Below, one piece after another: positions 4,564 through 27,042 of a DNA stretch of 44,058 nucleotides (positions within the stretch are counted from its first letter, which is position 1; every line of letters begins with the position of its first letter). The DNA comes from a virus. Where the stretch lies: the IMG/VR virus record IMGVR_UViG_3300008267_000200, positions 1 to 44,058 of that record; one strand, 5' to 3'. The translations under genes and the position numbers were made by a program. The notes beneath the pieces were generated by a model. It saw only the letters and a program-made list of their open reading frames with translations, did not search any database and was not told the DNA's origin.

Positions 4564-4583
4564 GGTTAATAAAATTTGATTAG

Positions 4584-4657
4584 TACCCCCATCAGGATTC
4601 GAACCTGAGGCCCACAGATTAGAAATCTGTTGCTCTATCCAACTGAGCTATGGAGGC
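4584..4657 (-). tRNA. tRNA-Arg (UCU)
   Basis: A complete cloverleaf on the minus strand, 74 nt with discriminator A. The acceptor GCCTCCA pairs with TGGGGGT, with two G-U pairs. The D-arm AGCTCAGTTGGATAGAGC is normal. The anticodon stem ACAGA/TCTGT closes loop TTTCTAA, giving anticodon UCU. The T-arm is a normal CAGGTTCGAATCCTG. No CCA is encoded. It reads AGA, by eye the main Arg codon of the tail, portal and terminase genes in this window, so it probably supports late expression. Confidence 0.93.
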
Positions 4658-4662
4658 ATTTG

Positions 4663-4755
4663 TAGTCAGGACAGGACTCGAACCTGTAAAAAGGTAGGCT
4701 ATGTACACTTGCCGTTTGAAGAACACTTGCAATTACTCATTTCTGCCACCTGACT
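4663..4755 (-). tRNA. tRNA-like gene, 93 nt, anticodon unclear
   Basis: The minus strand has a perfect 7-bp acceptor (AGTCAGG/CCTGACT), a perfect T-arm (ACAGG TTCGAGT CCTGT) and a plausible D-stem (GCAG/TTGC with one G-U). The remaining 40 nt do not give a standard anticodon arm. The best fit is GGCAA GTGTACA TAGCC, which would show anticodon GUA (Tyr) with one A-A mismatch and about 15 extra nt between the D- and anticodon arms. A type II (Leu-like) reading with anticodon CAA needs a poor stem. It is either a degenerate tRNA or one with an unusual insertion. Confidence 0.6.
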
Positions 4756-7969: not shown

Positions 7970-8017
7970 ATAGTCTATTCAATGGTTATTCGTAAGTACA
8001 CAATGATAGGGTTTTTG

Positions 8018-8098
8018 AAATCAGGATGGGATTCGAACCCATACCTCTGCAAGAGTTCAACGGAACTTGCAGTGCTCTACCAGTTGAGCTACCTGATT
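8018..8098 (-). tRNA. tRNA-like gene with enlarged anticodon loop
   Basis: The minus strand shows acceptor AATCAGG/CCTGATT (8 bp if the flanking A-T is counted), a normal D-arm (GCTC AACTGGTA GAGC) and a perfect T-arm (ATGGG TTCGAAT CCCAT). The anticodon stem CTGCA/TGCAG is also perfect, but the loop between has 16 nt in place of 7 and contains its own small hairpin (GTTC CGTT GAAC). No anticodon can be read with confidence; GUU (Asn) is one option. All other arms are intact, so simple decay looks less likely than a deliberate or recent insertion. Confidence 0.7.
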
Positions 8099-10348: not shown

Positions 10349-10619
10349 ATACAAGAGTAACACTTTAAGCATCAGTGAGAAGCAGCTATACATATGATAC
10401 ATTTATAGTATGTATTCAATGTGTATTACTATAGGTTATAGCTATACCTTATCTATGCCTATGTTAAGCAAGCATAAGATGATGAAGTGTGATACCATGT
10501 TATATAACTAATTAGATAGTCATCATGATACCACACTTAATGGATGTGAGAGTATTGGCAATCAATCTCTCCAACACACATAATAATTTATTAGTAACGA
10601 GTAACAACACGAGAATTAA
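10349..10619. other. Gene-free region with inverted repeats
   Basis: No convincing gene lies here; the one longer frame on the minus strand has poor composition. The stretch is AT-rich. It contains ATACATA...TATGTAT (about 10395-10423), an AGGTTATAG/CTATACCT pair near 10434, and a larger imperfect repeat AAGTGTGATACCATG (10485-10499) against CATGATACCACACTT (10524-10538) with 13 of 15 positions paired. An origin or early control region is possible; this is inference from gene absence, AT content and symmetry. Confidence 0.45.
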
Positions 10620-10622
10620 ACC

Positions 10623-10652
10623 AAAAAAAGGGGACGAATGTCCCCTCTTTTT
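10623..10652 (-). terminator. Intrinsic terminator after the 99-aa gene
   Basis: On the minus strand, GGGGAC GAAT-type loop GTCCCC (arms 10640-10645 and 10630-10635) is followed by seven T. It ends transcription of the gene at 10663-10962. The A-rich other flank makes it weakly bidirectional. Confidence 0.8.
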
Positions 10653-10662
10653 AAACGAATGA

Positions 10663-10962
10663 TTACTTCTCTTCGTTTGTGATGATGCCCTGTTTACGGG
10701 CAGCTTCAACAATCATCTTAAACTTAGGATGTTTGTTGTGAACAAAACGAATCATTTGAGTTTCGTTTGTAAATTGTTCATCGAGGGATGCAAATCCCAC
10801 GAATACAACTTTACCGTCAATGACTTCGATTTCATCGTTGTCTTTGAGTACATCACGAGTAGAGAGGATAATACCTGAAAGTTTATTCTCCTTGAAACAA
10901 AGTGATGCGGAAGCAGCAGCAACCATGTTGCTTGCTTGTTGAACTGGTGTTTTCTTGCTCAT
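10663..10962 (-). CDS. Unknown, probably highly expressed early protein (99 aa)
   Basis: A 99-aa protein starting MSKKTPVQQASNMVAAASAS (ATG at 10960-10962; an in-frame ATG 60 nt upstream gives a worse start). The rest is a small alpha/beta fold with a strand pair around VIDGKVVFVG and a helical C-terminus. It is a monocistronic unit: it lies right after the divergent promoter region with a GGAGG-containing leader and ends at a strong terminator. Codons favour CGT/GTT types. It looks like a first-expressed, abundant early protein; function unknown. Confidence 0.65.
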   Translation of the reverse strand: MSKKTPVQQASNMVAAASASLCFKENKLSGIILSTRDVLKDNDEIEVIDGKVVFVGFASLDEQFTNETQMIRFVHNKHPKFKMIVEAARKQGIITNEEK

Positions 10963-11133
10963 TGTGTTTGAGTTTATGAAGTTTACGAATAAATTATTAT
11001 GGGGGATATACTTATCCTCCAAAACTTAGCGGGGGTCTTTGAATACGTAGGATCTCACTATCAAAAAATTTCCCCAGTTAAAAAAATTTTATGTCAAGTT
11101 TTCTGTGCAGTTAACTCGTAACATTTTTCACAT
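10963..11133. promoter_or_regulatory. Divergent control region between early and late blocks
   Basis: A 197-nt gap between the leftward and rightward blocks (10963-11159). It contains AT-rich tracts, a TTGACAT on the minus strand near 11093, and the 12-mer CAGTTAACTCGT at 11108-11119 that recurs at 11176-11187 inside the first rightward gene. The leftward leader has GGAGGATAAG near 11015. No clear -7 element for the leftward gene was found. Confidence 0.5.
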
Positions 11134-11141
11134 TAGATTTG
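11134..11141 (+). promoter_or_regulatory. TAnnTTTG promoter element before the 44-aa gene
   Basis: TAGATTTG matches the Bacteroidota -7 consensus TAnnTTTG and lies 18 nt before the ATG at 11160, the same spacing as at the GroES-like gene. The -33 position has GTT, not a clear TTG, so the match is partial. Confidence 0.5.
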
Positions 11142-11159
11142 TTACAAAATTCTAACTAA

Positions 11160-11294
11160 ATGGCTAAAGCAAATACAGTTAACTCGTGGTCCCCAAACCC
11201 TAGAAAGAAACGTCCAGGGGTACATTCTAAGAAAAAGTTCTCTAAACTGAAGAGCTCAAAACTTTACAAGAAAGTTAGTAGAGGTCAAGGATAA
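11160..11294 (+). CDS. Small strongly basic protein (44 aa)
   Basis: A 44-aa protein with about 15 Lys/Arg residues and no acidic residue (core PRKKRPGVHSKKKFSKLKSS, ending KKVSRGQG). I recall similar tiny KRxGVHxK...SKxYxKxxRGQG proteins in phages of Bacteroidota, all without known function. It is the first gene of the rightward block, preceded by a TAGATTTG element. The charge suggests binding to RNA, DNA or the ribosome. The frame, codons and promoter support a real gene. Confidence 0.65.
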   Translation: MAKANTVNSWSPNPRKKRPGVHSKKKFSKLKSSKLYKKVSRGQG

Positions 11295-11299
11295 TTTGC

Positions 11300-11307
11300 T
11301 ACATTTG
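11300..11307 (+). promoter_or_regulatory. TAnnTTTG element at the head of a structured RNA
   Basis: TACATTTG matches TAnnTTTG. Initiation 6-8 nt downstream would begin at about 11313, the first base of the closing helix of the structured RNA. The -33 region (TTAGTA near 11275) is a weak match. Confidence 0.5.
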
Positions 11308-11312
11308 CAGAC

Positions 11313-11521
11313 AGCAACCATTCAACTTGAATGATCACCCCTGAGGGCCAAAGAGTAAGTAAGGGGTCAGACGTTGGGTTCTATCATACTCACTTTCAAT
11401 TACATAGAGTATGAAAGTTGTCCCCGATAGTTGCTAAAAAGGAATTGACATAAGGTTCTGGGGTGGATTACGACTATAGGGAAGAATGGAATGTCCCACC
11501 GAAGGCTAAAGACGGCAGAAC
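11313..11521 (+). ncRNA. Multi-armed structured RNA / late-operon leader
   Basis: Helices readable by eye: P1 AGCAAC 11313-11318 with GTTGCT 11430-11435; P2 CATTC/GAATG 11319-11333; P3 ACCCCT 11337-11342 with AGGGGT 11362-11367; P5 TTGGG 11374-11378 with CCCGA 11423-11427; P4 TCATACTC 11384-11391 with GAGTATGA 11407-11414. A second domain is GTTCTG 11455-11460 with CAGAAC 11516-11521 enclosing GGTGG/CCACC. ACTTTCA 11392-11398 could instead pair with TGAAAGT 11412-11418, excluding the end of P4. There is no protein frame here and no terminator before the next gene. It may be a leader that controls the late operon or a separate sRNA. Confidence 0.6.
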
Positions 11522-11608
11522 TGAAACTCAATTTTAAACAAAAAATCCTAAGGGGATAGGTGTGCCCAATTGGGAAATTTAGTTTATCTTTATCTCAAAA
11601 TTTCTCGT
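11522..11608 (+). promoter_or_regulatory. Leader before the first tail gene
   Basis: Gene-free. It contains the palindrome CCCAATTGGG (11565-11574) and TATCTTTA at 11585-11592, 16 nt before the ATG at 11609. The same TATCTTTA-16 nt-ATG arrangement occurs at 38644, so it may be a variant -7 element. Confidence 0.4.
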
Positions 11609-11839
11609 ATGGCAACTAACATTAAAGCAGGGCTGTATCAACCCCCATTTACTACTGAGGAAGATCAGCTTACTTACATGTTAGTGTACGTAGATGATAA
11701 GGTAGTGCAGTTCTTAGATGAGGGGGAAAAGTTTGTCTGTCAGTTTAGCTATGAAGAGCTGAGAGGGATTATGGGGATAATGGCTGCAGAGCAAGAGAAG
11801 ACTCATCTTAGAATACAGGCTCATATTAAAAAGAACTAA
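11609..11839 (+). CDS. Small unknown protein at the head of the tail genes (76 aa)
   Basis: A 76-aa protein (MATNIKAGLYQPPFTTEEDQ at the start), acidic, with a strand-rich N-terminal half (LTYMLVYVDDKVVQFLDEGE) and a helical C-terminus. I chose ATG 11609 over an upstream TTG at 11570, which lies in the CCCAATTGGG palindrome. It is followed 6 nt later by the 115-aa gene. No family recognised; position suggests a tail-associated or regulatory role. Confidence 0.6.
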   Translation: MATNIKAGLYQPPFTTEEDQLTYMLVYVDDKVVQFLDEGEKFVCQFSYEELRGIMGIMAAEQEKTHLRIQAHIKKN

Positions 11840-11845
11840 GTTAAG

Positions 11846-12193
11846 ATGAAGCTTACAAAGATTGATAAAGTACAGACTAGTCTTAAGCAACTCATTGATG
11901 TAGACCCATCTGGGGAGATCAATGAGATTTATAGAGTCGATGATATTAGGCATAACCAAGTACTTATAGCTAAGGTTTATCAAGAAAGGCAAGATGTATT
12001 TAAGTTTGAATACTTGTCTAACTTCTTTGCTGCAGGGACTGGGATAACACTTACTACTAATGATGCTGGGGTTACTACTATTACATCTACTGCTACTAGC
12101 AGTGGGGTTAGTACTAACTCTAATGTGCTTATTGACTGTGGGGCATTCCTCACCCCTAACGAGAATGTACTTGTAGACTGTGGAACTTTTTAA
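11846..12193 (+). CDS. Small fibre-associated structural protein (115 aa)
   Basis: A 115-aa protein with a helical N-terminus, a FFAAGTGITLTTNDAGVTT segment typical of phage fibre beta-structure, and two near-repeats at the C-terminus (NVLIDCGAF and NVLVDCGTF). It lies directly before the large fibre gene. A fibre adaptor or short fibre is likely from composition and position. Confidence 0.55.
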   Translation: MKLTKIDKVQTSLKQLIDVDPSGEINEIYRVDDIRHNQVLIAKVYQERQDVFKFEYLSNFFAAGTGITLTTNDAGVTTITSTATSSGVSTNSNVLIDCGAFLTPNENVLVDCGTF

Positions 12194-12204
12194 ATTAAAA
12201 CTGA

Positions 12205-15200
12205 ATGGCTCTTAGAATACGTCGTGGATTATCAGCAGATAGAACATCAATAACCCCCGAACAAGGGGAGTTTTTGTATACAACAGACACCTACCAAGTC
12301 TACATTGGGGATGGGGTAACTGCTGGGGGTAAGCCACTATATACACTGACTTCTTTAGGGGCTATCGGGCTAACAGACTTAAGTGCTACAAGTCCTTTAT
12401 TCTATAACAACACTACAGGGGTATTCTCAATTCAAGTTGCCACTGGATCACAGAATGGATATCTAGCTTCAGGAGACTTTACTGCATTTAATAATAAGCA
12501 AACTGCTCTTGAGATATTCGATGAGACTACTTCATTAATTACCAACCCATCACAGATTAAGTTTGTAGGAACCCCAGTAACCGCAACAGTAGCAGGCTCA
12601 GTTGTAACAGTTACTATTAGTGGTACAGGTGGGGGAGGGGGAGGAGTAACAGGGGTATCTGTTGCAACTGCTAATGGTTTCTCAGGGGTATCAGACTTAA
12701 ATGCTACCAACCCAACTCTTACTTTAGGGACTACAGTATCAGGGTTACTAAAGGGGAATGGAACTGCAGTATCAGCTGCTGTAGCAGGGACAGATTACCA
12801 AGCTGCATTGACTGGTACTGGTCTGGTAAATTCTTCAGGGGGTACAATCAGTTATGTAACTAATAACTCTAGCAATTGGGATACAGCTTACTCTCAAAGA
12901 ATCTCATCATTTACTACAATAGGTAATAGTGGGGCTGCTACTTTTACAGGTAATGTCCTTAACATCCCTAACTATACTGCAGCAGGTATTGGGGCAATAG
13001 CATCCTCAAGAATTATCGGGACTACTAGCCCGTTACAAGGTGGGGGAGACTTGACTGCAGATAGGACTCTGTCTATCCTTCAAGCTACAACCTCACAAAG
13101 TGGGTTTTTAAGCTCTACTGATTGGAATACGTTTAATGGTAAGCAGGCTGCTCTCTCAGGAACAGGGATAGTTAAGTCTACTGCAGGGACGATTACTTAT
13201 CTGACTGATAACTCAGCTAACTGGGATACAGCATTTGGATGGGGTAACCACGCATCTGCAGGCTACTTAACCTCAGCTACTGCCGCATCTACGTATGTCC
13301 CTAGAACTAGGACTTTGACTATTGATGGGGTTTCACAAGATCTAACAGTAGATAGAAGCTTCACAATCAATAAGGCTATTAACGATCTTACTGATGTAAC
13401 TATTACGTCTGTAGCTGGAGGAGATCTTTTGCAGTATAACCTTGCCACAACTCAGTGGATAAACACTCCATTAAGTGCTATTACTTCAGTTGGGGCTGAC
13501 AACGGATTGAGTTTCTCAGGAGGTAATGTTATCCTTGGGGGAAGTCTAGACTTTGATACAACTATCAATACGTTTAACTCTAGTCAGTACTCATTAACAT
13601 TTACAGCAGGTTCGACAGCTTACTCATCCCCAGGTACTGCCCCACTAAGAATAACAGAGACTACAGCGTACTCAGCAGGTAGATCAGCATTTTATGTAGG
13701 AGCTAATGATAATCATGCCCTCTCTGCAGAAGGTAAAGGCGCCCCAGTAACTACAGCCCCAACTAACTTATATAGAAGATCATCTGCTAACTTGTCAAAG
13801 AATGCTACTATACATTCTAAAGCAAAGCAAGGGTTACCTTTATATGCATACTCAGATTCAGACGAAGCTTATTCATCTATAACTAGATATTCAACTCCTA
13901 GTACTCCAGGTATATTAATTGAAAAGACTACAGGATTAACAAACTCTACAACTGCTAACGCGTTAAGTTTAACTGCAGGAGATACATTTGGGGCAAATCA
14001 ACTGTACAATCTACTAACTTTAAGATTAACAAGATCTGCTACAACTTCTGGACTTGTACCTAACACTGGATTGGAGTTTTCTTTTGAAGCTCAGACTAGC
14101 GGAACCACTGACATTGAACGTCTTGCAAACTTTAAAGTATATAGAGACTCATCAAATAATGGTACGCTAGCTATAAGCACAAGAACATCTACAATAAATG
14201 ATGAATATGATGGAATAGTGTTAAGTAGCAATGGAGAAATTACTCTTCCAGGATATAGACCCACTTATACTGATCTTTTTAAATCTCTTCTAACCCCAAA
14301 TATTACTTCTGGACAGATAACTAGTGTAGGTCTTGTATACTCAGATGCATTTAGACCTAGAATAAAATATGGAGATACTGTTAGTGTACAGGCTGTTTCC
14401 CCATCAGGAACTGGAGCAACCTTTGGTCCAACATTAGGATACTCGTTAAAAAGAATACGAATAACTAATCCAGGATCTGGATATGTATCGCCCCCTACAG
14501 TAACTATAGCTGCACCCCCAGCTGGAGGATCAGGATGGACTACTGGAGTAACCGCAGTAGCAACTGCTACGTTAACAGCTAGTGGACAAGTAGAGTATAT
14601 AAAACTTACTAATCAAGGAACTAGATACGTTACAGTACCATCTGTCACTATATCTGCCCCACCATCAGGAACAACTGCAACAGCCGTTGCTGAGTTTGGA
14701 GAAGGAGAAGTATTATTTATTGCAGTAACAAACTCAGGATCAGGGTATAATAGTGCAACTACAAAGATTATTACTAGAACACAATCGTATGCTGGTGCAG
14801 TTCCATCAGCATACCTAGGAGTAGATAATAATGGTAAAGTACAATTAGCAACAATATCTGTAGATTACTTATTAAATGGGGGTCAGTCAACAGGTCCATT
14901 TGCAGAGGGAGGTCAATTCTACAATAACACCACTTTATACTTTACTCAAAAAAATTTTATTATTAATGGTAGTAATTATTTTAGTGTTTCAACTGGAGGA
15001 TCAGGATCAACATCTACAGATGATGGAAGAATAGTACTTTCAAGTACATCTGCAGGAGGAAACAAATTAGAGAGATCTATATTCCCTGACCTTACAAGTT
15101 CTCCATATACTGATTTTATAGGATTTGCGGATGATTATCTATCTTCTTCCTATACATCTACTTTTTTACATGGAGGTATAAATACAGATGGAACAGGATC

Positions 15201-16134
15201 ACTAGATGCTGGAAATATATATAACTATTATGCAATTAACCCTGGTTTAGACAAAGTTCTAAGTTTTTATTTAAGTACTTCCACAGATGGTACAGAACCA
15301 ATAAATATAAATTCAGGAGTAAAAGCATCATTATATCTACAACACTTAGGGGATATACAAAGTATAAACTTATTAAAGAAACACTTTGACGTTAGTTTAT
15401 CTAGTACCACTTATGTTACAAATGGTGATGGATACGTCTTATCAAACATAGTATCAAATCTATCAGCAGCAAATTACACCGCTAACTATGAAATAGAGAT
15501 AGGGGGAGAGACTAAGATAACATCCTCAGGATACTATGAAGATAACAGTGGAGCGGATACTGGTAGTTACACTGCTGAAATAGCATCTAGTGCTACTAGC
15601 GAAGGAGGATTGTATAGAGGAATAGACTTAGTAGCAACTTCTGATTTCCCTGGATTACTTGGAACATCTAGAATTAAAATAAACTCACAAAGAGTATACA
15701 TTCGTCCACAGAATATTGGGACAGCTGGGCAAGTACTAAACATTGCCAATGCAACAACTGGAGAGGTTGGTTATACTACGTTATCAACTGTTGCAACAAG
15801 CGGAGATTATGCGGATTTAACTGGCACACCAACTATCCCAACAACCTTAGATAGTTTAACTGATGTAAGTGCAGCTAGTCCAACAAATGGGCAAGTACTA
15901 TCTTATAATACAGCAGCTAGCGCATGGCAAGCAGCAACATTCTCTGCAAGTGGATTAACTTTGCGTACAAATACTGTTGCTAATGGTTCTCAAAGTATTT
16001 TAGACTTAAAGCAAGGTACTAACATTACTATAGTTGACGATGGAGTAGGCGGAGTTACAATTAATTCAACAGGTGGTGGAGGTGGAACAGGAACTATAGG
16101 GCTAGATTCAGTATTCATGTTAATGGGAGCGTAA
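12205..16134 (+). CDS. Large tail fibre protein (1309 aa)
   Basis: The N-terminal about 45 residues (LRIRRGLSADRTSITPEQGE, then LYTTDTYQVYIGDG) match the Mtd/hyaluronidase-type N-terminal domain that attaches fibres to the tail. A low-complexity Gly hinge follows at about 140. Next are two internal repeats (GTGLVNSSGGTISYVTNNSS near 200; GTGIVKSTAGTITYLTDNSA near 315) with NWDTA and GWGNHASAGYLT motifs. Later segments have repeated GSGYxxPPTVTIxxPP units (about 755-850). The C-terminus is Gly-rich. It would bind the host surface. The first 1.3 kb uses mainly GGG for Gly, the rest mainly GGA, suggesting joined modules. No chaperone domain is visible at the end. Confidence 0.85.
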   Translation: MALRIRRGLSADRTSITPEQGEFLYTTDTYQVYIGDGVTAGGKPLYTLTSLGAIGLTDLSATSPLFYNNTTGVFSIQVATGSQNGYLASGDFTAFNNKQTALEIFDETTSLITNPSQIKFVGTPVTATVAGSVVTVTISGTGGGGGGVTGVSVATANGFSGVSDLNATNPTLTLGTTVSGLLKGNGTAVSAAVAGTDYQAALTGTGLVNSSGGTISYVTNNSSNWDTAYSQRISSFTTIGNSGAATFTGNVLNIPNYTAAGIGAIASSRIIGTTSPLQGGGDLTADRTLSILQATTSQSGFLSSTDWNTFNGKQAALSGTGIVKSTAGTITYLTDNSANWDTAFGWGNHASAGYLTSATAASTYVPRTRTLTIDGVSQDLTVDRSFTINKAINDLTDVTITSVAGGDLLQYNLATTQWINTPLSAITSVGADNGLSFSGGNVILGGSLDFDTTINTFNSSQYSLTFTAGSTAYSSPGTAPLRITETTAYSAGRSAFYVGANDNHALSAEGKGAPVTTAPTNLYRRSSANLSKNATIHSKAKQGLPLYAYSDSDEAYSSITRYSTPSTPGILIEKTTGLTNSTTANALSLTAGDTFGANQLYNLLTLRLTRSATTSGLVPNTGLEFSFEAQTSGTTDIERLANFKVYRDSSNNGTLAISTRTSTINDEYDGIVLSSNGEITLPGYRPTYTDLFKSLLTPNITSGQITSVGLVYSDAFRPRIKYGDTVSVQAVSPSGTGATFGPTLGYSLKRIRITNPGSGYVSPPTVTIAAPPAGGSGWTTGVTAVATATLTASGQVEYIKLTNQGTRYVTVPSVTISAPPSGTTATAVAEFGEGEVLFIAVTNSGSGYNSATTKIITRTQSYAGAVPSAYLGVDNNGKVQLATISVDYLLNGGQSTGPFAEGGQFYNNTTLYFTQKNFIINGSNYFSVSTGGSGSTSTDDGRIVLSSTSAGGNKLERSIFPDLTSSPYTDFIGFADDYLSSSYTSTFLHGGINTDGTGSLDAGNIYNYYAINPGLDKVLSFYLSTSTDGTEPININSGVKASLYLQHLGDIQSINLLKKHFDVSLSSTTYVTNGDGYVLSNIVSNLSAANYTANYEIEIGGETKITSSGYYEDNSGADTGSYTAEIASSATSEGGLYRGIDLVATSDFPGLLGTSRIKINSQRVYIRPQNIGTAGQVLNIANATTGEVGYTTLSTVATSGDYADLTGTPTIPTTLDSLTDVSAASPTNGQVLSYNTAASAWQAATFSASGLTLRTNTVANGSQSILDLKQGTNITIVDDGVGGVTINSTGGGGGTGTIGLDSVFMLMGA

Positions 16135-16147
16135 AAAATAAAATTAA

Positions 16148-16480
16148 ATGCCAACAACTTATAAAATATTAGGGCAACAAGCCCCAGCAGCAACTACAGC
16201 AGTGGATCTATACACTGTTCCTGCTGCTACACAAGCCGTAGTTAGTTCAATAATTGTCTGCAATCGTTCATCGTCAGCTACGGCTACGTTTAGAATCTCA
16301 GCTTCAGTGGCTGGGGCAGCTACAGCTAACAAAGATTACATCTACTACGATTTAATCATTGGGCAAAGCGATACGTTTATTGCAACAATTGGGTTAACTT
16401 TGGGGGCTACGGATAAAATACGTATCTATGCATCTACTGCTAACTTATCATTCACTGCAGTTGGATCAGAAATAAGCTAA
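16148..16480 (+). CDS. Small virion-surface protein (110 aa)
   Basis: A 110-aa all-beta protein (alternating Ala/Thr/Ser-rich strands, VSSIIVCNRSSSATATFRIS). It resembles small jelly-roll-like proteins found beside phage fibres. It lies 13 nt after the large fibre gene and 6 nt before the next structural gene. Probable accessory tail-tip protein. Confidence 0.6.
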   Translation: MPTTYKILGQQAPAATTAVDLYTVPAATQAVVSSIIVCNRSSSATATFRISASVAGAATANKDYIYYDLIIGQSDTFIATIGLTLGATDKIRIYASTANLSFTAVGSEIS

Positions 16481-16486
16481 TAACCT

Positions 16487-17746
16487 ATGGCACAAGGATA
16501 TTCATCATACACAATAGTAGATAGCGGAGTTTCAATTAAGGATGGTCCTAACTTAGATGCATTCAGCAGACTAAGAGTATCACAGCCTGTCACTGCGTTC
16601 TCGTCACAGTTTACGTACAACTTAAATCCATTGCTATTTGAACAAGTAGCAAGCGGTACAGGGGCTACAGTAACTCATGATACTACTAATAGAAATACTC
16701 TATTGACGTTTGCCTCAACTCCAACTGGGGGGCAAGCGTTTATGCAGAGTTATGAATTCATTCCTTATCAGCCTAGTAAGTCTCAGCTTGTATTTATCAC
16801 ATTCAACATGATAGCTGCGGTAGCTAACACGTTAAAGTTTGCTGGATTATCAGATGGAAATAACGGAATTGAGTTTCAACTAAATGGGACTACTAGACAA
16901 TTTGTTATTTATTCTGATACCACACTTGGTGATCAAACTGTAGTACAATCCTCATGGAATCTAGATAAACTAGACGGCACTGGAAGTAGTGGAATAACAC
17001 TAGACGTTACTAAGACTCAAATTTTAGTAATAGACTTTCAAGCGTTGTACGTAGGAAGAGTTAGAGTTGGATTTGATATTGATGGGCAGATAATCTATTG
17101 CCATGAGTTTCTACATGCCAACTTAGTAGAATACCCATACATTCAAACTGCTAACCTTCCAGTTAGAGTTGGGATGACCTGTACAGGAACAGTATCTACT
17201 ACAATGAACTTTATTTGCTCAGCAGTAGTAAGCGAAGGAGGAATTGATTCCGCAGCTTTGTTTGGGTATGACTTTGTAGCTGCAAATTCTACAGATATAT
17301 CAGTAACTACATCACCCACTCATATGCTATCTATTCGCCCAAGAACTACCTTTAACTCTATTACTAATAGGATTAAACTAATTCCCACAGGTATAGATAT
17401 TATTATTACTGGATCAGGAACTAACATAGTGTTTTGGGAGTTAGTAGTAGGTCAAACATTGACTTCTGGTGTAGGTGCTGCAAATGTAAATACAACATAT
17501 TCAGGAACAGAAGTTTTAACTGGAGGAGTTATGTCAGGCTCCCCAATAGTTATTGACTCTGGGTATGCAACTAGTTCTAATCAAAGTAAAGCGTCATTTG
17601 ACGCAACTATATCGACTAGGTATCCTTTAACTTTAGATAGATCAGGAGCAAATAGAGATTTAGGGCAATTAACTTTAAGAGCAACCTCTATAGTTGGAGG
17701 AACATTTACCTGCAGAGGATTGATAAGATTTAAAGAGATTAGATAA
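16487..17746 (+). CDS. Tail-associated structural protein, DAFSRLRVS family
   Basis: A 419-aa protein whose N-terminus carries GPNLDAFSRLRVSQP, a motif seen in many phage virion proteins of the DAFGRLRVS type. A middle region has LDGTGSSGITLDVTKTQILV followed by strand-rich sequence typical of carbohydrate-binding or jelly-roll folds. It shares both motifs with the next gene, so the pair are paralogues. The adjacent genes overlap by one base (TAATG). Likely a tail spike or receptor-binding component. Confidence 0.7.
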   Translation: MAQGYSSYTIVDSGVSIKDGPNLDAFSRLRVSQPVTAFSSQFTYNLNPLLFEQVASGTGATVTHDTTNRNTLLTFASTPTGGQAFMQSYEFIPYQPSKSQLVFITFNMIAAVANTLKFAGLSDGNNGIEFQLNGTTRQFVIYSDTTLGDQTVVQSSWNLDKLDGTGSSGITLDVTKTQILVIDFQALYVGRVRVGFDIDGQIIYCHEFLHANLVEYPYIQTANLPVRVGMTCTGTVSTTMNFICSAVVSEGGIDSAALFGYDFVAANSTDISVTTSPTHMLSIRPRTTFNSITNRIKLIPTGIDIIITGSGTNIVFWELVVGQTLTSGVGAANVNTTYSGTEVLTGGVMSGSPIVIDSGYATSSNQSKASFDATISTRYPLTLDRSGANRDLGQLTLRATSIVGGTFTCRGLIRFKEIR

Positions 17747-19194
17747 TGCCTTTAGAAAGAATATATAGAGACATATCAATAAATGACTCAGTAAACTTAG
17801 ACTCATTCTCTAAAGTTAGAATATCTGAGGTATCTGACTATGATTTTTTTAATTTTACTTATGCCTCTACCAATACTTGGAATGTTAATGTATTTGGTGC
17901 TCCAGAAGCAGGATTAAATTTTTTTACACACTACATTGGAATAGATATAGTTGGATCATTTGCTAATCTATCTGCAGTAAAATTTATAGATAATAAGGTA
18001 CAATTTAAAGCTATTAGCGTACTTACTGGACTGACCCCAGCAGTTGCTTCTATACAAACTAGAAGACTTATAAACATCACAAGAAACTCTACTATAAAAG
18101 CATATATATCTTTTAAATTATCAAGTACACCTATTCCTGCCTCTAGAATTATGTGGATTGGAATAGGAAATGATAACGCTGTTAATAATGAAGATGGTAA
18201 AAGTGGGTTTATAGGACTTAAACTAGACCCTCTTGCTATAACTGCAACCAATCCGTTAGGAATAACTCTAAGCTTAACTTTAACTACAATAAGTTCAGTA
18301 AGCAAAATTGTCTTAAGTAAAGATGAGTGGGAAGATAGATTTGATGGAACTGGACCTAGTGGAGTAACCTTAGATTTTACAAAAATTCAAGTCCTATCAA
18401 TAGAATATAGATCGGGAGGACACGGAGAGACAGAATGGGGATTCATGGTAGGAAGTAAATTCTGTAGAGCAGCAGCTATGTACAATGTAAATAAATCTAT
18501 CAGTGATGGTTTTGGAAATGGTCTACTCGGAGGCACACCTGTTACGCTTCGACCATTTTTAAATAGTTGCAGACTTACAGCAGGATATGGAAGAACATCT
18601 GGAAGTAGCCCCTCTTTAACATCAAATGAAGTATTCTTTGACTTATATGGAGGAGTTGTATTTAGAGAAGAGAATCCAAATGAAATAAAACTTAAAAATA
18701 AATACAAATTTTCTACGTCAACTACCTATAATGCTACTATAAGTTCGGGAATAAGTACAAGTATAATAAGAATAAGAAAGAAAGCTAGTTATAATAGTGC
18801 AACATCTACATATTTTACTTTTGCAACTATTGATACAATAACATTTTTATCTACAGCTACTGTACCACTATACTGGGAATTAGTTTACAGTAATGCAGTA
18901 TCTACAACTTTTACTTCTTTAGATTCAAACTCTTTAATAGAAATAAATACTGGTACTGGTGCACTAAGGCCTACTGGGCCAATAATCTATGGGGGATTTG
19001 TAGCAGCAGGAGAAACTATAACTTTTAAAGTTCCTGAATCTGTAAAAAATATGTGGCAACTAGTAGATGGTGTTAGAGGAACAGGAACTGCAGATAACTA
19101 CACTTACTTTGCAATATGCGCAACCCCAATTGGAGGAGGAACAACAGCTAACCAAATAAGAGTATCAATAACAACTGAAGAAACTTATAACTAA
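17746..19194 (+). CDS. Tail-associated structural protein, paralogue of the preceding gene
   Basis: A 482-aa protein. The N-terminus has SVNLDSFSKVRISE, aligned with LDAFSRLRVS of the preceding protein, and the middle has FDGTGPSGVTLDFTKIQVLS, matching the same place there. Outside these, the sequences diverge strongly. Codons favour GGA and AGA. It overlaps genes on both sides by one base. Likely an alternative or partner receptor-binding protein. Confidence 0.68.
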   Translation: MPLERIYRDISINDSVNLDSFSKVRISEVSDYDFFNFTYASTNTWNVNVFGAPEAGLNFFTHYIGIDIVGSFANLSAVKFIDNKVQFKAISVLTGLTPAVASIQTRRLINITRNSTIKAYISFKLSSTPIPASRIMWIGIGNDNAVNNEDGKSGFIGLKLDPLAITATNPLGITLSLTLTTISSVSKIVLSKDEWEDRFDGTGPSGVTLDFTKIQVLSIEYRSGGHGETEWGFMVGSKFCRAAAMYNVNKSISDGFGNGLLGGTPVTLRPFLNSCRLTAGYGRTSGSSPSLTSNEVFFDLYGGVVFREENPNEIKLKNKYKFSTSTTYNATISSGISTSIIRIRKKASYNSATSTYFTFATIDTITFLSTATVPLYWELVYSNAVSTTFTSLDSNSLIEINTGTGALRPTGPIIYGGFVAAGETITFKVPESVKNMWQLVDGVRGTGTADNYTYFAICATPIGGGTTANQIRVSITTEETYN

Positions 19195-19715
19195 TGGCAC
19201 AAGGGTATACAAAAGGAATTCCACTTAGCACTGATGGTACGCTATCAGCTAATAGTGACTTAATTGTTCCATCTCAGAAAGCAGTTAAGGCTTACGTTGA
19301 CGCTAACTCTGGAGGTGGTGGAGGTAGTGGCGGTACTACTACTAATGCCTTGACAATAAATAACTCTGGTAGTGGAGATGTTTCTGGAACTACATTTAAT
19401 GGGTCAGCAGCGGTTACTATCTCATATAACACTGTTGGGGCACAGGCATCTAACTCTAACCTTACTAACTTAGCAGGTTTAACTTATGCTTCTACTTCAT
19501 TTGTAAAAATGACTGCAGCTAATACATTTAGTCTAGATACTACAGTATATGCACCATTAGCATCTCCTGCATTTACAGGAACTCCAACGGCAACAACACC
19601 ATCTGCTAACGATAATAGTACTAAATTAGCAACCACAGCTTATGTAGACAATGCAGTAAGTGGAGGAGGAGTAACTTTTAACCAAGTACAAAGAATAGCA
19701 TTCCTTAAGATATGA
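19194..19715 (+). CDS. Short tail fibre protein (173 aa)
   Basis: A 173-aa fibre protein. It contains DLIVPSQKAVKAYVDAN near residue 25, a Gly-rich hinge and PLASPAFTGTPTATTPSAND followed by TKLATTAYVDNAV. These are standard trimeric tail-fibre shaft elements (PxASPxFTGTPTAPT...TTQIATTAFV type). It lacks a large C-terminal head domain, so it could be a truncated fibre or a connector. It overlaps the next gene by ATGA. Confidence 0.75.
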   Translation: MAQGYTKGIPLSTDGTLSANSDLIVPSQKAVKAYVDANSGGGGGSGGTTTNALTINNSGSGDVSGTTFNGSAAVTISYNTVGAQASNSNLTNLAGLTYASTSFVKMTAANTFSLDTTVYAPLASPAFTGTPTATTPSANDNSTKLATTAYVDNAVSGGGVTFNQVQRIAFLKI

Positions 19716-20554
19716 TCATACTAAGCAATACAACAGATTCATTGCAAGTAGTGCTAGCATCTGCTGTTACTACTAACCAACTTAGGTGTTATGTAGCTTA
19801 TAGGGATACTACTGCTAGTACTATCACCCCAAATAGAGCTGTAGCTAACACAAATAACACGACCCCAGTCACGTTATTATCTGCTCCTTCAGCTTCAGCT
19901 CAAAAAATTGTAGATTATTTAAGTATTTATAACTCAGATACTGGTACTGAAATCGTAACCGTGTATATAAATAGCAGTTCTACTACTTACAAGTTAATAG
20001 AGATTGCATTAGCTCCTGGAGAAAAACTAGAATTTCAAGAAGGGCAAGGATTTAGAAGTCTAGCTGCAGATGGATCATTAAAGATTGGGGAAAATCAAAG
20101 TATTACATCTAATGGAAATGTCAATGTAGCATCAATATCTACGGGTATTACTACTACTAGTACTACGTATGTAAATATGACTGGATTATCATTCTCTATG
20201 GATGCTAATTCAACTTATTGGTTTAGATTTGTAATATCTACCTTTCATGCTAATGCCTCTGTTTCATATAGATTTGCAGTTAATAGTGCAGCTACCCTTA
20301 CATACTTATCTTACATGAGATTATTTAATGTAGGTACGGGTCCTAATAACTTAACAACTTACATATCAAAAGATTACGATTCTTCTGAAGCAGCAACTGG
20401 AAATACGGTAACAGCAGGAACAATAGCAACAATGGAAGGAATAATATCAGTATCAACTTCTGGAACACTCATAGGTAGAATGGCGCAAGAGTTGGCCTCT
20501 GGTACAATGAACGTAAGAGCTGGATCTTTAGTATACTACCAAAAACTAAGCTAA
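19712..20554 (+). CDS. Receptor-binding-type protein, copy 1 of 3
   Basis: A 280-aa beta-rich protein. The N-terminal about 120 residues (TTDSLQVVL, then IVDYLSIYN, then LAPGEKLEFQEGQGF) recur in the two genes that follow. The C-terminal half has a C1q-like look (TYVNMTGLSFSMDANSTYWF) and ends in SLVYYQKLS. The three copies probably form exchangeable tail-tip heads. It starts within the stop of the short fibre gene (ATGA). Confidence 0.68.
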   Translation: MIILSNTTDSLQVVLASAVTTNQLRCYVAYRDTTASTITPNRAVANTNNTTPVTLLSAPSASAQKIVDYLSIYNSDTGTEIVTVYINSSSTTYKLIEIALAPGEKLEFQEGQGFRSLAADGSLKIGENQSITSNGNVNVASISTGITTTSTTYVNMTGLSFSMDANSTYWFRFVISTFHANASVSYRFAVNSAATLTYLSYMRLFNVGTGPNNLTTYISKDYDSSEAATGNTVTAGTIATMEGIISVSTSGTLIGRMAQELASGTMNVRAGSLVYYQKLS

Positions 20555-20694
20555 TGAATATAGGAGATACCATAATAATACATGATAAAGCTTATACTGT
20601 ATGGCTTATTGAGGGAGCAGTATACCATCTAATTGCTGCTGATGGAGAAGGTAGATGCTATGTTGAGCAAACTTTGTTAAATTTAGAAGAATGA
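20554..20694 (+). CDS. Tiny protein between receptor-binding paralogues (46 aa)
   Basis: A 46-aa frame (MNIGDTIIIHDKAYTVWLIE at the start; acidic end) that shares one base with the stop before it (TAATG) and four with the next start (ATGA). This exact double coupling supports translation. It looks like a small beta-barrel (SH3-like strand order). Function unknown. Confidence 0.6.
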   Translation: MNIGDTIIIHDKAYTVWLIEGAVYHLIAADGEGRCYVEQTLLNLEE

Positions 20695-21548
20695 TAATCC
20701 TAGCAAATACTACAGATTCAATTCAAGTGTTGCTATCTGCAACTGTTGCTGCAAATCAACTGCAATGCTATGCTGCATTTAGAGATACTACATCTTCTGC
20801 AATAACTCCATCTAGTAGAGTAGTAACCACAAACAATACTACAGCTGTAGACTTAGTACAGTCTCCTGGATCATCTACTCAAAGAATTGTTGACTTCTTA
20901 AGTATACAGAACACAGATACAGCAACACAAGAGGTAACAATAAGATTTAATGACAATGGAGTTACTTATATCCTGTTTAAAATATCATTAAATACAGGAG
21001 AAAAAATAGAATACCATGACGGTAAAGGCTTTAAGGTGATAAACAGTGCAGGAGGAATAACTGGAATTGCAGAGATTGGCTCAAACATAAGCAATGTAGG
21101 CTTTAAAACTATCTATTTACCAACAGATTCAATCCTTACTTCAAGTAGAGCATTAGGATCATCTGATCCAGTTCCAGGATTAGAGTTTCCAGTAGTACAG
21201 GATAAAATATATCTTTTCAAATTTTTTATTTTATATGATGTAGATGCTACAACTACTGGAGTTAGGTTTAATGTTCACAATTCTTCTTTAACTAATAACT
21301 ATGCTGCAATAAATTTTGAAAGTTTAACAGCCTCTACTGCTTTCATACATTATACCTCTACAGACTTTTTACAAGGAGCTACTAGTAATACTAGTGCATA
21401 TACAGGACAAAACTGCTCAAGAATAGAAGGAGGATTTATAGCTGGAGGTCATGGAAGAGTAAGACTATATGCTGGTCACGATGTTGCAGCTGGTGCTACA
21501 CTCACCATCAAAAAAGGATCAATGGTTCAATTTTATCAACTAACTTAG
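20691..21548 (+). CDS. Receptor-binding-type protein, copy 2 of 3
   Basis: A 285-aa paralogue: TTDSIQVLL, RIVDFLSIQN and LNTGEKIEYHDGKGF align with copies 1 and 3. The C-terminal half is the most divergent of the three (LEFPVVQDKIYLFKFFILYD) but ends in the same way (GSMVQFYQLT). It is probably a virion tip protein with a different target or a partner subunit. Confidence 0.68.
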   Translation: MIILANTTDSIQVLLSATVAANQLQCYAAFRDTTSSAITPSSRVVTTNNTTAVDLVQSPGSSTQRIVDFLSIQNTDTATQEVTIRFNDNGVTYILFKISLNTGEKIEYHDGKGFKVINSAGGITGIAEIGSNISNVGFKTIYLPTDSILTSSRALGSSDPVPGLEFPVVQDKIYLFKFFILYDVDATTTGVRFNVHNSSLTNNYAAINFESLTASTAFIHYTSTDFLQGATSNTSAYTGQNCSRIEGGFIAGGHGRVRLYAGHDVAAGATLTIKKGSMVQFYQLT

Positions 21549-21549
21549 T

Positions 21550-22398
21550 ATGTTAATACTTACCCAAACTACAGATTCTTTACAAGTAGTACTGAGTGCT
21601 TCAACTACAATTGAAGCACAGTGTTTTGTTTCATATAGAAATACTACATCATCAGCTATAACTCCACTTAGAACTGTAACTAATACTAATGATACTACCG
21701 CAGTAACTTTAGTACCAGCTCCTTCAGCATCTAACCAAAGAATAGTTGATTACATTAGCATCTATAATGCTGACTCTAGTAGTATAACCCCAACAATACT
21801 CTTCAATGATAATGGGACTACATACACACTATTCTCAGCTACCATACTTCCAGGAGAGAAAATAGAGTACCATGAAGGAGCTGGATTCTCAGTCATAGGC
21901 TTTAACGGAGGAGCTAAAACTGCAACAGGATATAGTATATCTAACGTAACAACTCCCTGGACTACTGTAGTTCTTACTTCTGATGTAATAAATAACAATG
22001 CTACAGCAAATACTTACGAGGATATAACTGGTTTATCATTTACAGCATCTACTACAGGAACCTATTGGGTAAGATTAATAGCTCTAACATCTGTAGTTAC
22101 AAACAACAGACTTGGGGCATATGCATTTAATGGCCCTACAGCAAGTCTTATAACTCTTGCAGGATACGTTATGAACTCTAATACATCAATAGTGCAAAAT
22201 GTAATAAGTGCTTATAATTCACCAGCAACTGCATTAACAACCACAAGTCCAACTAGTAATAAGAATGTATACACATTAGAAGGATTTTTAACATTAACTG
22301 CTACAGGGACAGTGCAAGCAAGGCACATGTGTTCAACTTCATCAGGGGCTTTAACGACAATGGCAGGTACTACTCTACAGTATTATAAAGTTTTTTAA
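21550..22398 (+). CDS. Receptor-binding-type protein, copy 3 of 3
   Basis: A 282-aa paralogue: TTDSLQVVL, RIVDYISIYN and LPGEKIEYHEGAGF align with the two preceding genes. The C-terminal half (TYEDITGLSFTASTTGTYWV) resembles copy 1 more than copy 2 and ends in TTLQYYKVF. It starts one base after the previous stop. Unequal duplication with divergence of the head domain is the likely history. Confidence 0.68.
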   Translation: MLILTQTTDSLQVVLSASTTIEAQCFVSYRNTTSSAITPLRTVTNTNDTTAVTLVPAPSASNQRIVDYISIYNADSSSITPTILFNDNGTTYTLFSATILPGEKIEYHEGAGFSVIGFNGGAKTATGYSISNVTTPWTTVVLTSDVINNNATANTYEDITGLSFTASTTGTYWVRLIALTSVVTNNRLGAYAFNGPTASLITLAGYVMNSNTSIVQNVISAYNSPATALTTTSPTSNKNVYTLEGFLTLTATGTVQARHMCSTSSGALTTMAGTTLQYYKVF

Positions 22399-22407
22399 TC
22401 AAATATC

Positions 22408-24459
22408 ATGAAAATAAACTCAGTAAAATTTAAGGACAAAGCATCCTTTAACAAAAACAAAAGCAAACCTAATGTGGTTGCTATTCACGAACCTTTTGGA
22501 ATTCTCGTTTTTAAAGACGATACTCCAGTAACTCCTGATCCTAATAAGGTATCACAAGTTAACCAAGTAGATGGATCTTTAGATCAAGTATCTACAGGAC
22601 TTGCTATCTTAATTGGTAAAGATTATGCTTCAGCAAAGAAGTACCTTGATGCTAATAACATCGTAGTTAAAGATTCATTTGATCTTACAAGTACCTTCTT
22701 TGTGGAAGTTCCAGATTTCGTTCCATTTGATTCATTCTATGGAAGTATCATGGCAACAGGTCTATTCATTAGTGTAGAACCTGACTACATCGTACCAATG
22801 GAGACAACTGCAGAACAATTGTACAATGCACATTGGCACCTACCAAACATGAGAGCTGCAGAAGCTTGGTCAATTATGCCAAGAGATGGTGGTGGAGAAG
22901 TAGCTGTACTTGATATTGCTTGTGAAACAGGACATGAAGATTTGCAAGGAGCAATTAGCCCACTGTCATGGAACTGTGTGACTAATGCACCCGATGTAAA
23001 CCCAATTAGTGAGAATGAGAAGCACGGTACAGCATGTACAGGAGTTATTGCTGCAGTATGTAACAATGATATTGGGGTATTATCATTAGGAGGTAACAGA
23101 CTAAAAGTTCAGTTCCTACATATCGGGTATGGAAGTAATACTGGTGGTGGATTCTTTACATCAGATACGATTGTTACACTTGCTGTAAACAAAGCAATGG
23201 CTAACCCAAAGTGTTATGCAATCTCTATGTCATGGGGTGGTACTAACAATTACCCAGTATTTATCAATGCATTGAATACAGCTAAAACTGTAGCTAGAAG
23301 TGGTAAAGGTATTCCAATCTTTGCTTCTAGTGGTAACCAGTATTCATCAACTATTACAAGTAATCCAGCAGCTTATCCATCAGTAATGGCTATTGGTGCA
23401 TCAGCATCAAATAACACTAAAGCAGGATTTAGTAACTATGGTAGTAAACTATTTGCTGCTGCCCCAGGTACTAGCCTGCTAACTGTAGATAGAACTGGAG
23501 CTTCTGGATATGGACCAGAATCTTACAAAGGATTCTCAGGTACATCAGCATCTTGCCCAGCAATGGCTGCCGTAGCTGCAGCTGTTCTTGTAGTTAACCC
23601 AGACCTTACTGAAGCACAAGTAAAAGATATCCTCAAGAATTCATGTAGAAAACTTGGTGGATATGTTTACAATGCAGATGGTTGGTCAAACGAACTTGGT
23701 TACGGGATAATTGACATGTTCTCTGCAGTGACTTTGGCAAGTAACACTAATCCTGGAGATCCAAATCCTACTCCAAACTACAATTACTTTGGTACAATCT
23801 CTAGTCCCGCTACAGCTCAGCAAGGTGCAGTTGTAAATGTAGTTTACACTGTAAGTGCTGATAAAGCAGCTCCTACTGATACAGTAATTCCAGTATCGCT
23901 GTTCTTCAAACGTGCAGATGGAGGTAACTTTAACTTCTACAATGGTAATGTAACTATCCCTGCTAATCAGACTTCAGTAACAACTAGTATCCCTCATACT
24001 ATTTCAAATACTGCAACAGGTACAGCTCAGTTTGTACTCTCAGTAGATGCTAGTGGGTATCTCCCAGAGTCAAATGAGAATGATAACGTAGCTATGACTG
24101 CTATTAACGTAACAGTTCCACCACCCCCTACAACTCAACTTGACATGCAAGTAGAGATTACTGGCTATGAGTGGTTAGATGCTACTAGAGTTAGAATTGG
24201 ATATAGATTCAAAAATGTAGGATCTGCTACAGTTACTAACTTGAAAGCTACTGCTGGATTCGACGGAAGAACTCCTAATACTTGGACTAGAACAGAGACT
24301 TATGCTCCTGGTTCATCTAGATCTATGGGCTCTGTATTTTACACTAACATGTCCCCAACATTCCCTAACACTTTTAGAATTAAGATTGTACAGGTTAATG
24401 GGGTAATTGATGAGAACCCAGCTAATAACGAGGCAAGTATCCTAATTGCAATGAAATAA
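22408..24459 (+). CDS. Subtilisin-family serine protease with CARDB-like C-terminus
   Basis: A 683-aa S8 peptidase. Residues about 20-130 look like an I9-type propeptide/inhibitor (TSTFFVEVPDF, GLFISVEPDYIVP). The catalytic domain has Asp169 in VAVLDIACETGHEDL, His206 in EKHGTACTGVIA, Asn310 in FASSGNQ and Ser380 in GTSASCPAMAA, so all four key residues are present. From about 450 come one or two CARDB-like beta domains (ESNENDNVA; ENPANNEA repeats). No signal peptide is present, and it lies between receptor-binding and lysis genes, so a virion-borne protease acting on host surface proteins is likelier than a secreted enzyme. Confidence 0.9.
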   Translation: MKINSVKFKDKASFNKNKSKPNVVAIHEPFGILVFKDDTPVTPDPNKVSQVNQVDGSLDQVSTGLAILIGKDYASAKKYLDANNIVVKDSFDLTSTFFVEVPDFVPFDSFYGSIMATGLFISVEPDYIVPMETTAEQLYNAHWHLPNMRAAEAWSIMPRDGGGEVAVLDIACETGHEDLQGAISPLSWNCVTNAPDVNPISENEKHGTACTGVIAAVCNNDIGVLSLGGNRLKVQFLHIGYGSNTGGGFFTSDTIVTLAVNKAMANPKCYAISMSWGGTNNYPVFINALNTAKTVARSGKGIPIFASSGNQYSSTITSNPAAYPSVMAIGASASNNTKAGFSNYGSKLFAAAPGTSLLTVDRTGASGYGPESYKGFSGTSASCPAMAAVAAAVLVVNPDLTEAQVKDILKNSCRKLGGYVYNADGWSNELGYGIIDMFSAVTLASNTNPGDPNPTPNYNYFGTISSPATAQQGAVVNVVYTVSADKAAPTDTVIPVSLFFKRADGGNFNFYNGNVTIPANQTSVTTSIPHTISNTATGTAQFVLSVDASGYLPESNENDNVAMTAINVTVPPPPTTQLDMQVEITGYEWLDATRVRIGYRFKNVGSATVTNLKATAGFDGRTPNTWTRTETYAPGSSRSMGSVFYTNMSPTFPNTFRIKIVQVNGVIDENPANNEASILIAMK

Positions 24460-24460
24460 T

Positions 24461-24835
24461 ATGTTAAAGAAATTTATCTATAAACTACAGTTGTTTGATG
24501 GGGTATGGTCAGTTCCACTGTCAGTACTCTTCTTCTTACTTGTAGGTAAACTCAGTTATGAGTACTTTGGAGATACCCCACTTATCTCTACAGAGTATCT
24601 ACAACTAGTAATGCTTGCTGCAGTTATACTAATTTTTGCTAACTTTGTCGTATTCCTAGGAATTAGATTTAACTTTAGGAACCTGCAAAAGGACTTTTAC
24701 TCAAAAGAGATGAAGTACCTTGCAGGAATGGAGCTAACATCATGGCAAAAAATAAAGCTATACTTATTTGTTTACTTTGGGTTTTTAGTATCCTTCCTAC
24801 TAATTCTTTGGTTAGTAATGACGGCTACTGCGTGA
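24461..24835 (+). CDS. Membrane protein, holin candidate (124 aa)
   Basis: A 124-aa protein with membrane helices at about 15-32, 45-68 and 100-122, separated by charged loops. It stands directly before the endolysin gene and overlaps it by 94 nt in another frame. Size, helix count and place fit a holin. A different membrane protein cannot be excluded, since holins have no diagnostic motif. Confidence 0.6.
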   Translation: MLKKFIYKLQLFDGVWSVPLSVLFFLLVGKLSYEYFGDTPLISTEYLQLVMLAAVILIFANFVVFLGIRFNFRNLQKDFYSKEMKYLAGMELTSWQKIKLYLFVYFGFLVSFLLILWLVMTATA

Positions 24836-26010: not shown

Positions 26011-26015
26011 AGCTA

Positions 26016-26045
26016 TTGCTTATATAAAGGTTCTTAGTATATTTG
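26016..26045 (+). promoter_or_regulatory. Bacteroidota-type promoter (TTG-N19-TATATTTG)
   Basis: TTG at 26016-26018, a spacer of 19 nt and TATATTTG at 26038-26045 fit the Bacteroides/Flavobacterium vegetative consensus (TTG, 19-21 nt, TAnnTTTG). It lies 18 nt before the ATG of the GroES-like gene. This is the best promoter in the window. Confidence 0.8.
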
Positions 26046-26063
26046 CATAAAACCAAATGTAAC

Positions 26064-26333: not shown

Positions 26334-26337
26334 AATA

Positions 26338-26899: not shown

Positions 26900-27042
26900 C
26901 ACATGTATTCGTCCCCCCAACTAAGGTACTAACCTTCTTTTATATAGGGTATTACTCTCTAATGGTGATACAGAATGGGTATGGTGACGTAGAAGGACTA
27001 CATTTAACAGAATTAATAGAACCAAACATAGAAGAAGTATGA
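26896..27042 (+). CDS. Tiny protein (48 aa) coupled on both sides
   Basis: A 48-aa frame (hydrophobic-aromatic middle TFFYIGYYSLMVIQ, acidic end) that overlaps the gene before and after it by ATGA. This arrangement strongly suggests translation. No function can be assigned. Confidence 0.6.
   Translation: MTHVFVPPTKVLTFFYIGYYSLMVIQNGYGDVEGLHLTELIEPNIEEV

Follow-up and report, generated by a model that had tools for sequence, protein, structure and literature searches.

A candidate new structured-RNA class at the start of the late gene block of a crAss-like phage, with relatives in other viruses and in bacterial genomes

Comparison of related sequences indicates that a locus between two oppositely directed gene blocks of a crAss-like phage is almost certainly the gene for a structured RNA of a new class. 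The gene occupies about 228 nt (positions 11313-11540) of the window, by which we mean the whole 44,058-nt stretch of DNA that was analyzed, and the RNA is predicted to form two domains, P1-P5 and P6-P8. Divergent copies were found that carry compensatory changes in many of the proposed pairs. The RNA occurs in more than 100 viral sequences, including that of the human-gut crAss-like phage cr118_1; it has no Rfam family and is unannotated in cr118_1, the sole named record.

Genomic context and coding potential

The window is a 44-kb virus record of a crAss-like phage. Its capsid protein (34034-35446) matched Crass_capsid (PF23898) at 5.9e-77, and its terminase and portal matched PHROG families. 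Left of about 11.0 kb the genes run mostly leftward and include a polymerase and helicases; right of 11.6 kb they run rightward and include the structural and packaging genes. The GC skew changes sign at this strand switch. Between both blocks lie, in order, a basic 44-aa open reading frame (ORF; 11160-11294, plus strand), the element TACATTTG (11300-11307) and the RNA, and the rightward block is headed by a plus-strand gene of 76 aa (11609-11839) that had no Pfam or PHROG match. A preliminary description of this DNA had placed the RNA at the head of the late block, and this was supported.

The 44-aa ORF, which adjoins the RNA upstream, contains an RPGVHSK motif, has a pI of 11.8 and belongs to family F0 (28 members). 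Small proteins of the F0 type (RPGVHxKxK...RGQG, pI about 10.4-12) were found upstream of the RNA in many phages, and it is conceivable that the basic protein is a nucleic-acid-binding partner of the RNA. Other phage groups have small, mostly acidic proteins ending in CENCGS at this place (for example L046, L084, L128, L151 and L069). Elsewhere in the window, tRNA-like genes were predicted on the minus strand at 4583-4755 and 8017-8098, one being a tRNA-Arg(TCT) and the rest odd or weak predictions; they lie at least 3.2 kb from the RNA and on the opposite strand. A strong minus-strand hairpin of 15 pairs with a T-run at 10621-10654 is a likely terminator between leftward genes.

The RNA encodes no protein, as had been proposed. 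No ORF of at least 60 aa overlies 11313-11540, the complete ATG frames of more than 15 codons within 11291-11620 have 27 and 22 codons, and the indels in the RNAs of relatives are not divisible by three. Antisense ORFs cross the RNA in some relatives (families F49 and F22) and are absent from the window.

When the window was searched against Rfam 15 at the gathering score, only tRNAs were returned, and positions 11000-11700 gave no match up to an E-value of 5. Eight viral and eight bacterial loci, searched up to an E-value of 2, gave 5 and 12 matches, respectively, none of which overlapped the RNA, in agreement with the earlier statement that it belongs to no known class. A group I or group II intron or a known ribozyme appears unlikely, as no such Rfam match overlapped the RNA, which sits between complete ORFs. 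A riboswitch class appears likewise unlikely, as the downstream genes differ and the alternative pairings examined were not conserved. No description of the RNA was noticed in the abstract openings of the open-access papers searched. Given this and the lack of a matching Rfam entry, we regard it as a new RNA class; what it does may turn out to be familiar.

Architecture of the RNA

The 5' domain (11313-11435, plus strand) is closed by P1 (11313-11318/11430-11435), which opens into a four-way junction with P2, P3 and P4; covariation among 83 distinct relatives underlies this fold, and the minimum free energy (MFE) prediction agrees with it. The AGCAAC...GTTGCT helix with three enclosed arms that was noticed at the outset is thus P1 around P2, P3 and P4 with P5. 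Hairpin P2 (11319-11333; 11319-11324/11328-11333) showed changes on both sides in 4 of 4 counted pairs, with 95.0% of cells paired. The P3 arm (11337-11367; ACCCCT/AGGGGT at 11337-11342/11362-11367) did so in 3 of 5 counted pairs, with 99.2% of cells paired, and its two strands change together, bacterial copies having ACCCG/CGGGT, for instance; its apical part is variable, and by eye some relatives have GNRA-like loops. P4 (GTTGGG/CCCGAT, 11373-11378/11423-11428) carries P5 (11384-11391/11407-11414) on top, the two spanning 11373-11428, and changed on both sides in 3 of 6 pairs.

The 3' domain (11441-11535, plus strand) is formed by P6 (11441-11448/11528-11535), P7 (11454-11460/11516-11522) and P8 (11462-11466/11496-11500); the register of P8 was taken from the alignment by eye, and the longest P8 helix that our script found in the window is in a different register. 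The second domain reported previously, closed by GTTCTG/CAGAAC, exists as P7, but the closing helix is P6, which had been cut off by the end of the described span at 11521.

The MFE fold of 11313-11540 yields P1-P7 at -57.9 kcal/mol (z -1.42), with 22 of 200 shuffled sequences equally stable. The span described previously (11300-11521) folds differently, at -52.7 kcal/mol (z -0.31). As the stability of the fold is unremarkable, the evidence is carried by covariation.

A switch between two competing pairings had also been suggested. The P5 pairing, TCATACTC/GAGTATGA, was complete (8/8) in 9/9 group-A sequences and showed compensatory changes, whereas ACTTTCA/TGAAAGT, 7/7 in the window, was intact in 3 of 8 group-A sequences in all and had one or two mismatches in the other five. 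Because one pairing is kept and the alternative is not, the switch found no support.

A conserved element, CTAAGGGGATA.GTGTG (AAGGGG-A..URUGUCUA; 11548-11565, extending up to 11575, plus strand), occupies a fixed place 3' of the folded domains in most subfamilies seen. Its pairing with the 3' strand of P4 (UUGUCCCC/UUUUCUCC) was attractive by eye and was rejected: over 60 rows, the cognate value was 6.57 versus 6.40 after shuffling, and 87 of 500 shuffles were as good.

Covariation among relatives

R1, a covariance model built on the 5' domain, gave 85 matches in 84 picked loci, with at least one in each locus. Alignment A5 comprises these 84 loci (71 viral, 12 bacterial and the window), picked out of more than 150, and is independent of the program used to parse copies. 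A5 was fitted to the structure and is hence biased towards the proposed fold; the covariation score of the 5' domain was 0.644 on 83 distinct relatives, versus 0.161 after shuffling and at most 0.101 when slid. Paired cells made up 95.1% versus 69.9% in shuffled controls, and 456 cells with double changes were counted versus 135.7. Changes on both sides affected 15 of 21 pairs versus 12.7, which is a slight excess only, reached in 2 of 500 shuffles, whereas the score and the cell counts stand well clear of the shuffles. The invariance of P4, of the P3-P4 joint (second pattern) and of P3 (first pattern) was partly selected, because those letters were in the search patterns.

The 3' domain was examined in 28 picked sequences from groups A, B and C and their near kin, with the large D-type group left out. 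Cognate strands formed longer helices than re-paired ones at P6 (6.85 versus 5.21; 27 rows), P7 (6.00 versus 4.18; 22 rows) and P8 (6.32 versus 5.32; 19 rows), with none of 500 re-pairings as good; the longest helix of each row was scored, and for a few rows this lies in another register. Compensatory changes in relatives, which the preliminary description had named beforehand as one test of its reading, were thus found in the 5' domain and in P6-P8.

Promoter-type element and terminators

The element TACATTTG (plus strand) is of the Bacteroidota -7 type (TAnnTTTG) and ends 5 nt before P1, in accordance with the earlier reading of a promoter-type element at that distance from the AGCAAC helix, which starts at 11313. 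TAnnTTTG is cited in PMC7366714 as the -7 consensus that the primary sigma factor recognizes, deduced in Bacteroides fragilis. Across the window the motif occurs at chance frequency (47 versus 45.55 expected). Of 102 distinct viral upstream stretches, however, 57 have it with its first base 10-18 nt ahead of P1, versus 0.7 expected from mononucleotide shuffles; here, as in the terminator and bacterial-upstream counts, the shuffles keep base composition only. Given this placement, transcription would start on the first base of P1 or very close to it.

Of the 100 viral copies for which sufficient downstream sequence was available, 39 have a second TAnnTTTG between the RNA and the first gene, versus 5.1 expected. 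The other 61, including the window, have none, so that their first gene is probably dependent on read-through of the RNA. On the plus strand between the RNA and 11609, one scan detected no terminator and a laxer script one weak site. Terminator-like sites 3' of the RNA were near chance (15 of 100 viral copies versus 9.2 expected), which is consistent with the claim that no terminator precedes the late genes. In the window, such sites on both strands numbered 15 versus 9.0 (sd 3.7) from 10400 to 28000, and 11 versus 7.8 (sd 3.3) from 28000 to 44058. A strong hairpin of 13 pairs with a T-run, readable on both strands, is located at 38612-38641 between two rightward genes of the late block.

Distribution and context in viruses

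Among relatives of a neighboring protein, found independently of the RNA, 9 of 19 loci with upstream sequence contained the RNA (L002-L004 and L006-L011); L002 is near-identical to the window, L006 equals L008 over the stretch compared, and L005 starts at the gene. Eight records from the more distant half of these relatives (L012-L015, L017, L018, L020 and L021) had no R1 match; one of these (G003) had a match to a broader model, R2, at an E-value of 0.0027 and was left out of the counts. A first search pattern with P3 fixed recovered 57 viral stretches, with wider similarity visible by eye in all those listed, and a second with P3 free recovered at least 120. All 94 loci added by the second pattern (L081-L174) matched R2 at E-values of at most 6.7e-6, some of them having been used to build R2.

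Copies were resolved by a parser into 166, of which 139 were viral (110 distinct) and 27 bacterial (26 distinct), 16 unparsable ones being dropped. P1 and P2 were placed wrongly in about a dozen (for example L042, L058, L061, L076, L112, L127, L176, L179-L181 and L196), which blurs the flank, promoter and terminator counts.

Among named phages in INPHARED, 14 records of crAss-like or Flavobacterium phages were searched, and only one carried the RNA, namely cr118_1 (Besingivirus coli, listed as uncultured; 66589-66699, E-value 1.7e-6), where it sits in an unannotated divergent gap that a BLASTN match from L101 also touches (E-value 6e-3, 28% of the query). The other 13 had no credible copy among the few candidates passed by the prefilter, by which copies may be missed. 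Weak R2 matches in phi14:2, cr1_1 and ctbg_1 (E-values 0.03-0.07) lay entirely or mostly within coding sequence and were dismissed as chance hits. BLASTN with representatives found cr118_1 as the sole named phage, and no plasmids.

The window has a single R1 match, and 23 of 23 long viral records selected for the RNA, which are possibly fragments, had one match each. A possible second, divergent copy was seen on the minus strand of L159 (2185-2282; E-value 0.91 with R1 and 1.3e-4 with R2). This weak match is contained in both A5 and R2, and its R2 E-value is circular because R2 was built with it.

A crAss-type capsid gene was present in 18 of the 23 long records, and its best match lay on the strand of the RNA in 18 of 18 and downstream in contig coordinates in 15 of 18; the exceptions (G519, G520 and G531) are possibly permuted circles. 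In L138, L115, L119 and L133 a terminase gene lies downstream on the strand of the RNA, and these terminases match PHROG families other than that of the window. The sole protein scanned in L101 and in L143 was a replication protein, so in these two the block is possibly a non-structural one. Flanks were counted in the 71 viral copies with at least two ORFs of at least 55 aa on either side. The next gene was on the same strand in 68 and the next four all were in 59, and a gene on the opposite strand came just before the RNA in 50. The gene that follows the RNA differs between phage groups.

Copies in bacterial genomes

The second pattern also recovered 29 stretches in six bacterial genomes. With R1, at least 15 matches were found in RUG14866 and at least 12 in RUI415, both of Bacteroidales type; bacterial counts per genome are lower bounds from 150 candidates scored in each. 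From the style of their isolate names, we take these two genomes to be from the rumen. They form one family with RGIG5037, which has at least one copy, as do Salinimicrobium sediminilitoris and a Pedobacter metagenome-assembled genome (MAG); a Flavobacterium MAG has one copy by R1 and two by pattern. Beyond the genome at the center of the scan, R1 found the RNA in 0 of 394 genomes of the phylum and 0 of 100 of the family. R2 found it in 2 of 246 genomes in the order of Salinimicrobium and in 3 of 190 in the family of RUI415, the known ones included. These large scans used strict filters, the phylum scan recovering 6 of the 15 RUG14866 copies, and genomes can be missed.

Upstream of the bacterial copies, TAnnTTTGC occurred within 220 nt in 23 of 24 versus 0.26 expected, and at the distance typical of phages in only 3 of 24. 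The downstream neighbor was convergent in 21 of 26. Neighboring genes were diverse, with 103 Pfam families over 48 proteins and the commonest in four; these 48 proteins included no consistent nuclease, reverse transcriptase or transposase (HNH in two, integrase in two). The copies in L177 and L181 have integrase-type genes close by, as does, below the Pfam cut-off, the copy in L203, which also has an rve integrase-core gene nearby. This suggests that these three copies, from the Flavobacterium and Pedobacter MAGs, are in integrated elements. In the Bacteroidales MAGs (L175-L202), the recurring unit consists of a promoter-type element, a leader of variable length, the RNA and often a GC-rich hairpin, and it frequently faces a convergent gene.

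Possible functions

Copies that lack a co-directional operon behind them, as most bacterial ones do, retain the fold supported by covariation, together with promoter-type elements of their own, indicating that the function is not everywhere dependent on downstream genes in cis. We therefore prefer, with middling confidence, to regard the RNA as a free, trans-acting molecule, and we place a cis-acting leader second. The RNA would be made by the host RNA polymerase together with the late transcripts, as nothing clearly terminates before the first late gene. It would then act free in trans and may bind, sequester or retune a host macromolecule, and copies residing in integrated elements or on bacterial chromosomes would do likewise from their own promoters. 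RNA polymerase and the ribosome come first as candidates, a guess with no result pointing to either, and any named target is doubtful. The trans reading is favored by the genomes with 12 and 15 copies, by the diverse neighbors and convergent downstream genes of bacterial copies, by the varying next gene in viruses and by the frequency of a second TAnnTTTG. Against it stand the regular viral position at the head of a block, the constant capsid strand, the 61 copies with no second element and the bacterial elements, few of which are at the spacing seen in phages. The hairpin at 38612-38641 also counts against it, as a possible substrate for a cis antiterminator.

That antiterminator would be the RNA itself if it were a cis-acting leader, the nascent transcript folding behind RNA polymerase and modifying it for passage through the whole of the long late operon by processive antitermination, in principle as put does. 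We consider this possible, though less likely than the trans reading. Its best argument is that in unrelated phages the RNA stands first in the late block, which holds the capsid gene in crAss-like phages, and that it lies upstream of a same-strand terminase in the four records named above. The promoter-type element at the first base of the RNA, the want of a link to one particular downstream gene, the near-chance frequency of terminators directly after the RNA, and the 13-pair hairpin, which could be overridden, all fit as well. However, most bacterial copies have no co-directional gene behind them, terminator-like sites in the late block exceed chance by no clear margin, and there is a single copy, with none for the divergent block. 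The preliminary description had proposed either a leader controlling late transcription or a phage small RNA (sRNA); the former has become doubtful in view of the stand-alone bacterial copies and the second TAnnTTTG in 39 viral copies, and the latter fits better.

A catalytic or mobile RNA, related to introns, ribozymes or transposons and spreading by itself, would explain the multi-copy genomes and the patchy distribution, namely 12-15 copies in two genomes of a family in which 3 of 190 genomes have the RNA. The integrase-type genes near three copies, and the rve gene in L203, could be read in the same way. We nevertheless judge it very unlikely, as copies have upstream promoter-type elements, no mobility protein is consistently present among the 48 neighbors and no Rfam intron or ribozyme match overlaps the RNA. 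Still less probable is a riboswitch or attenuator acting on the first downstream gene only: the 61 viral copies that precede that gene with no second promoter-type element would suit it, but the gene varies between phage groups, the alternative pairings examined are not conserved and most bacterial copies are followed by a convergent gene. That the divergent junction yields a replication primer or an origin transcript is scarcely credible, for although the RNA sits at a strand switch where the GC skew of the window changes sign, skew tracks gene direction anyway and multiple dispersed chromosomal copies are hard to reconcile with an origin.

Returning to the trans-acting reading, a wider and speculative picture, which we think unlikely as a whole, is an RNA machine shared as an accessory by unrelated phages, integrated elements and chromosomes. 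Phages would express it from the start of the late block and so commandeer a host complex; certain bacteria would have multiplied it to 12-15 copies per genome as decoys against phages or for their own use. The timing of late expression in crAss-like phages is, to our knowledge, largely unknown. With its putative promoter and 5' end, predicted helices and conserved junctions named, the RNA offers a defined and testable element, and its multi-copy chromosomal version would allow a direct test of a trans function or a host decoy.

Comparison with known RNAs

Likeness to the put RNAs of phage HK022, which act in cis on termination and suppress it by way of RNA polymerase, had been suggested. As described in PMC9378689, put RNAs are about 70 nt long, form two stem-loops and occur in two copies (putL and putR) behind early promoters. 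Both are folded phage RNAs downstream of a promoter that encode no protein. The likeness fails on size and architecture, the present RNA having about 228 nt and eight helices in two domains where that description gives two stem-loops, and on copy number and place, since each viral record searched has a single copy, which heads the structural-gene block, and bacterial genomes have stand-alone ones.

GOLLD and ROOL are large ornate phage RNAs, often near tRNA islands; ROOL env-120 has 659 nt and many GOLLD RNAs exceed 800 nt, according to PMC12286853. The present RNA resembles them, as they are portrayed there, in being an elaborate phage-borne non-coding RNA of unassigned function that came out of comparative genomics. 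It differs in its size of about 228 nt, in its location at the head of the late block with tRNAs at least 3.2 kb away on the other strand, and in having no Rfam match to either family.

Lastly, GibS of Bacteroides is an intergenic sRNA that is described in PMC7366714 as relatively unfolded. Both are intergenic RNAs of Bacteroidota species; in contrast to GibS as characterized there, the RNA described here is highly structured by prediction and is found mainly in viral sequences.
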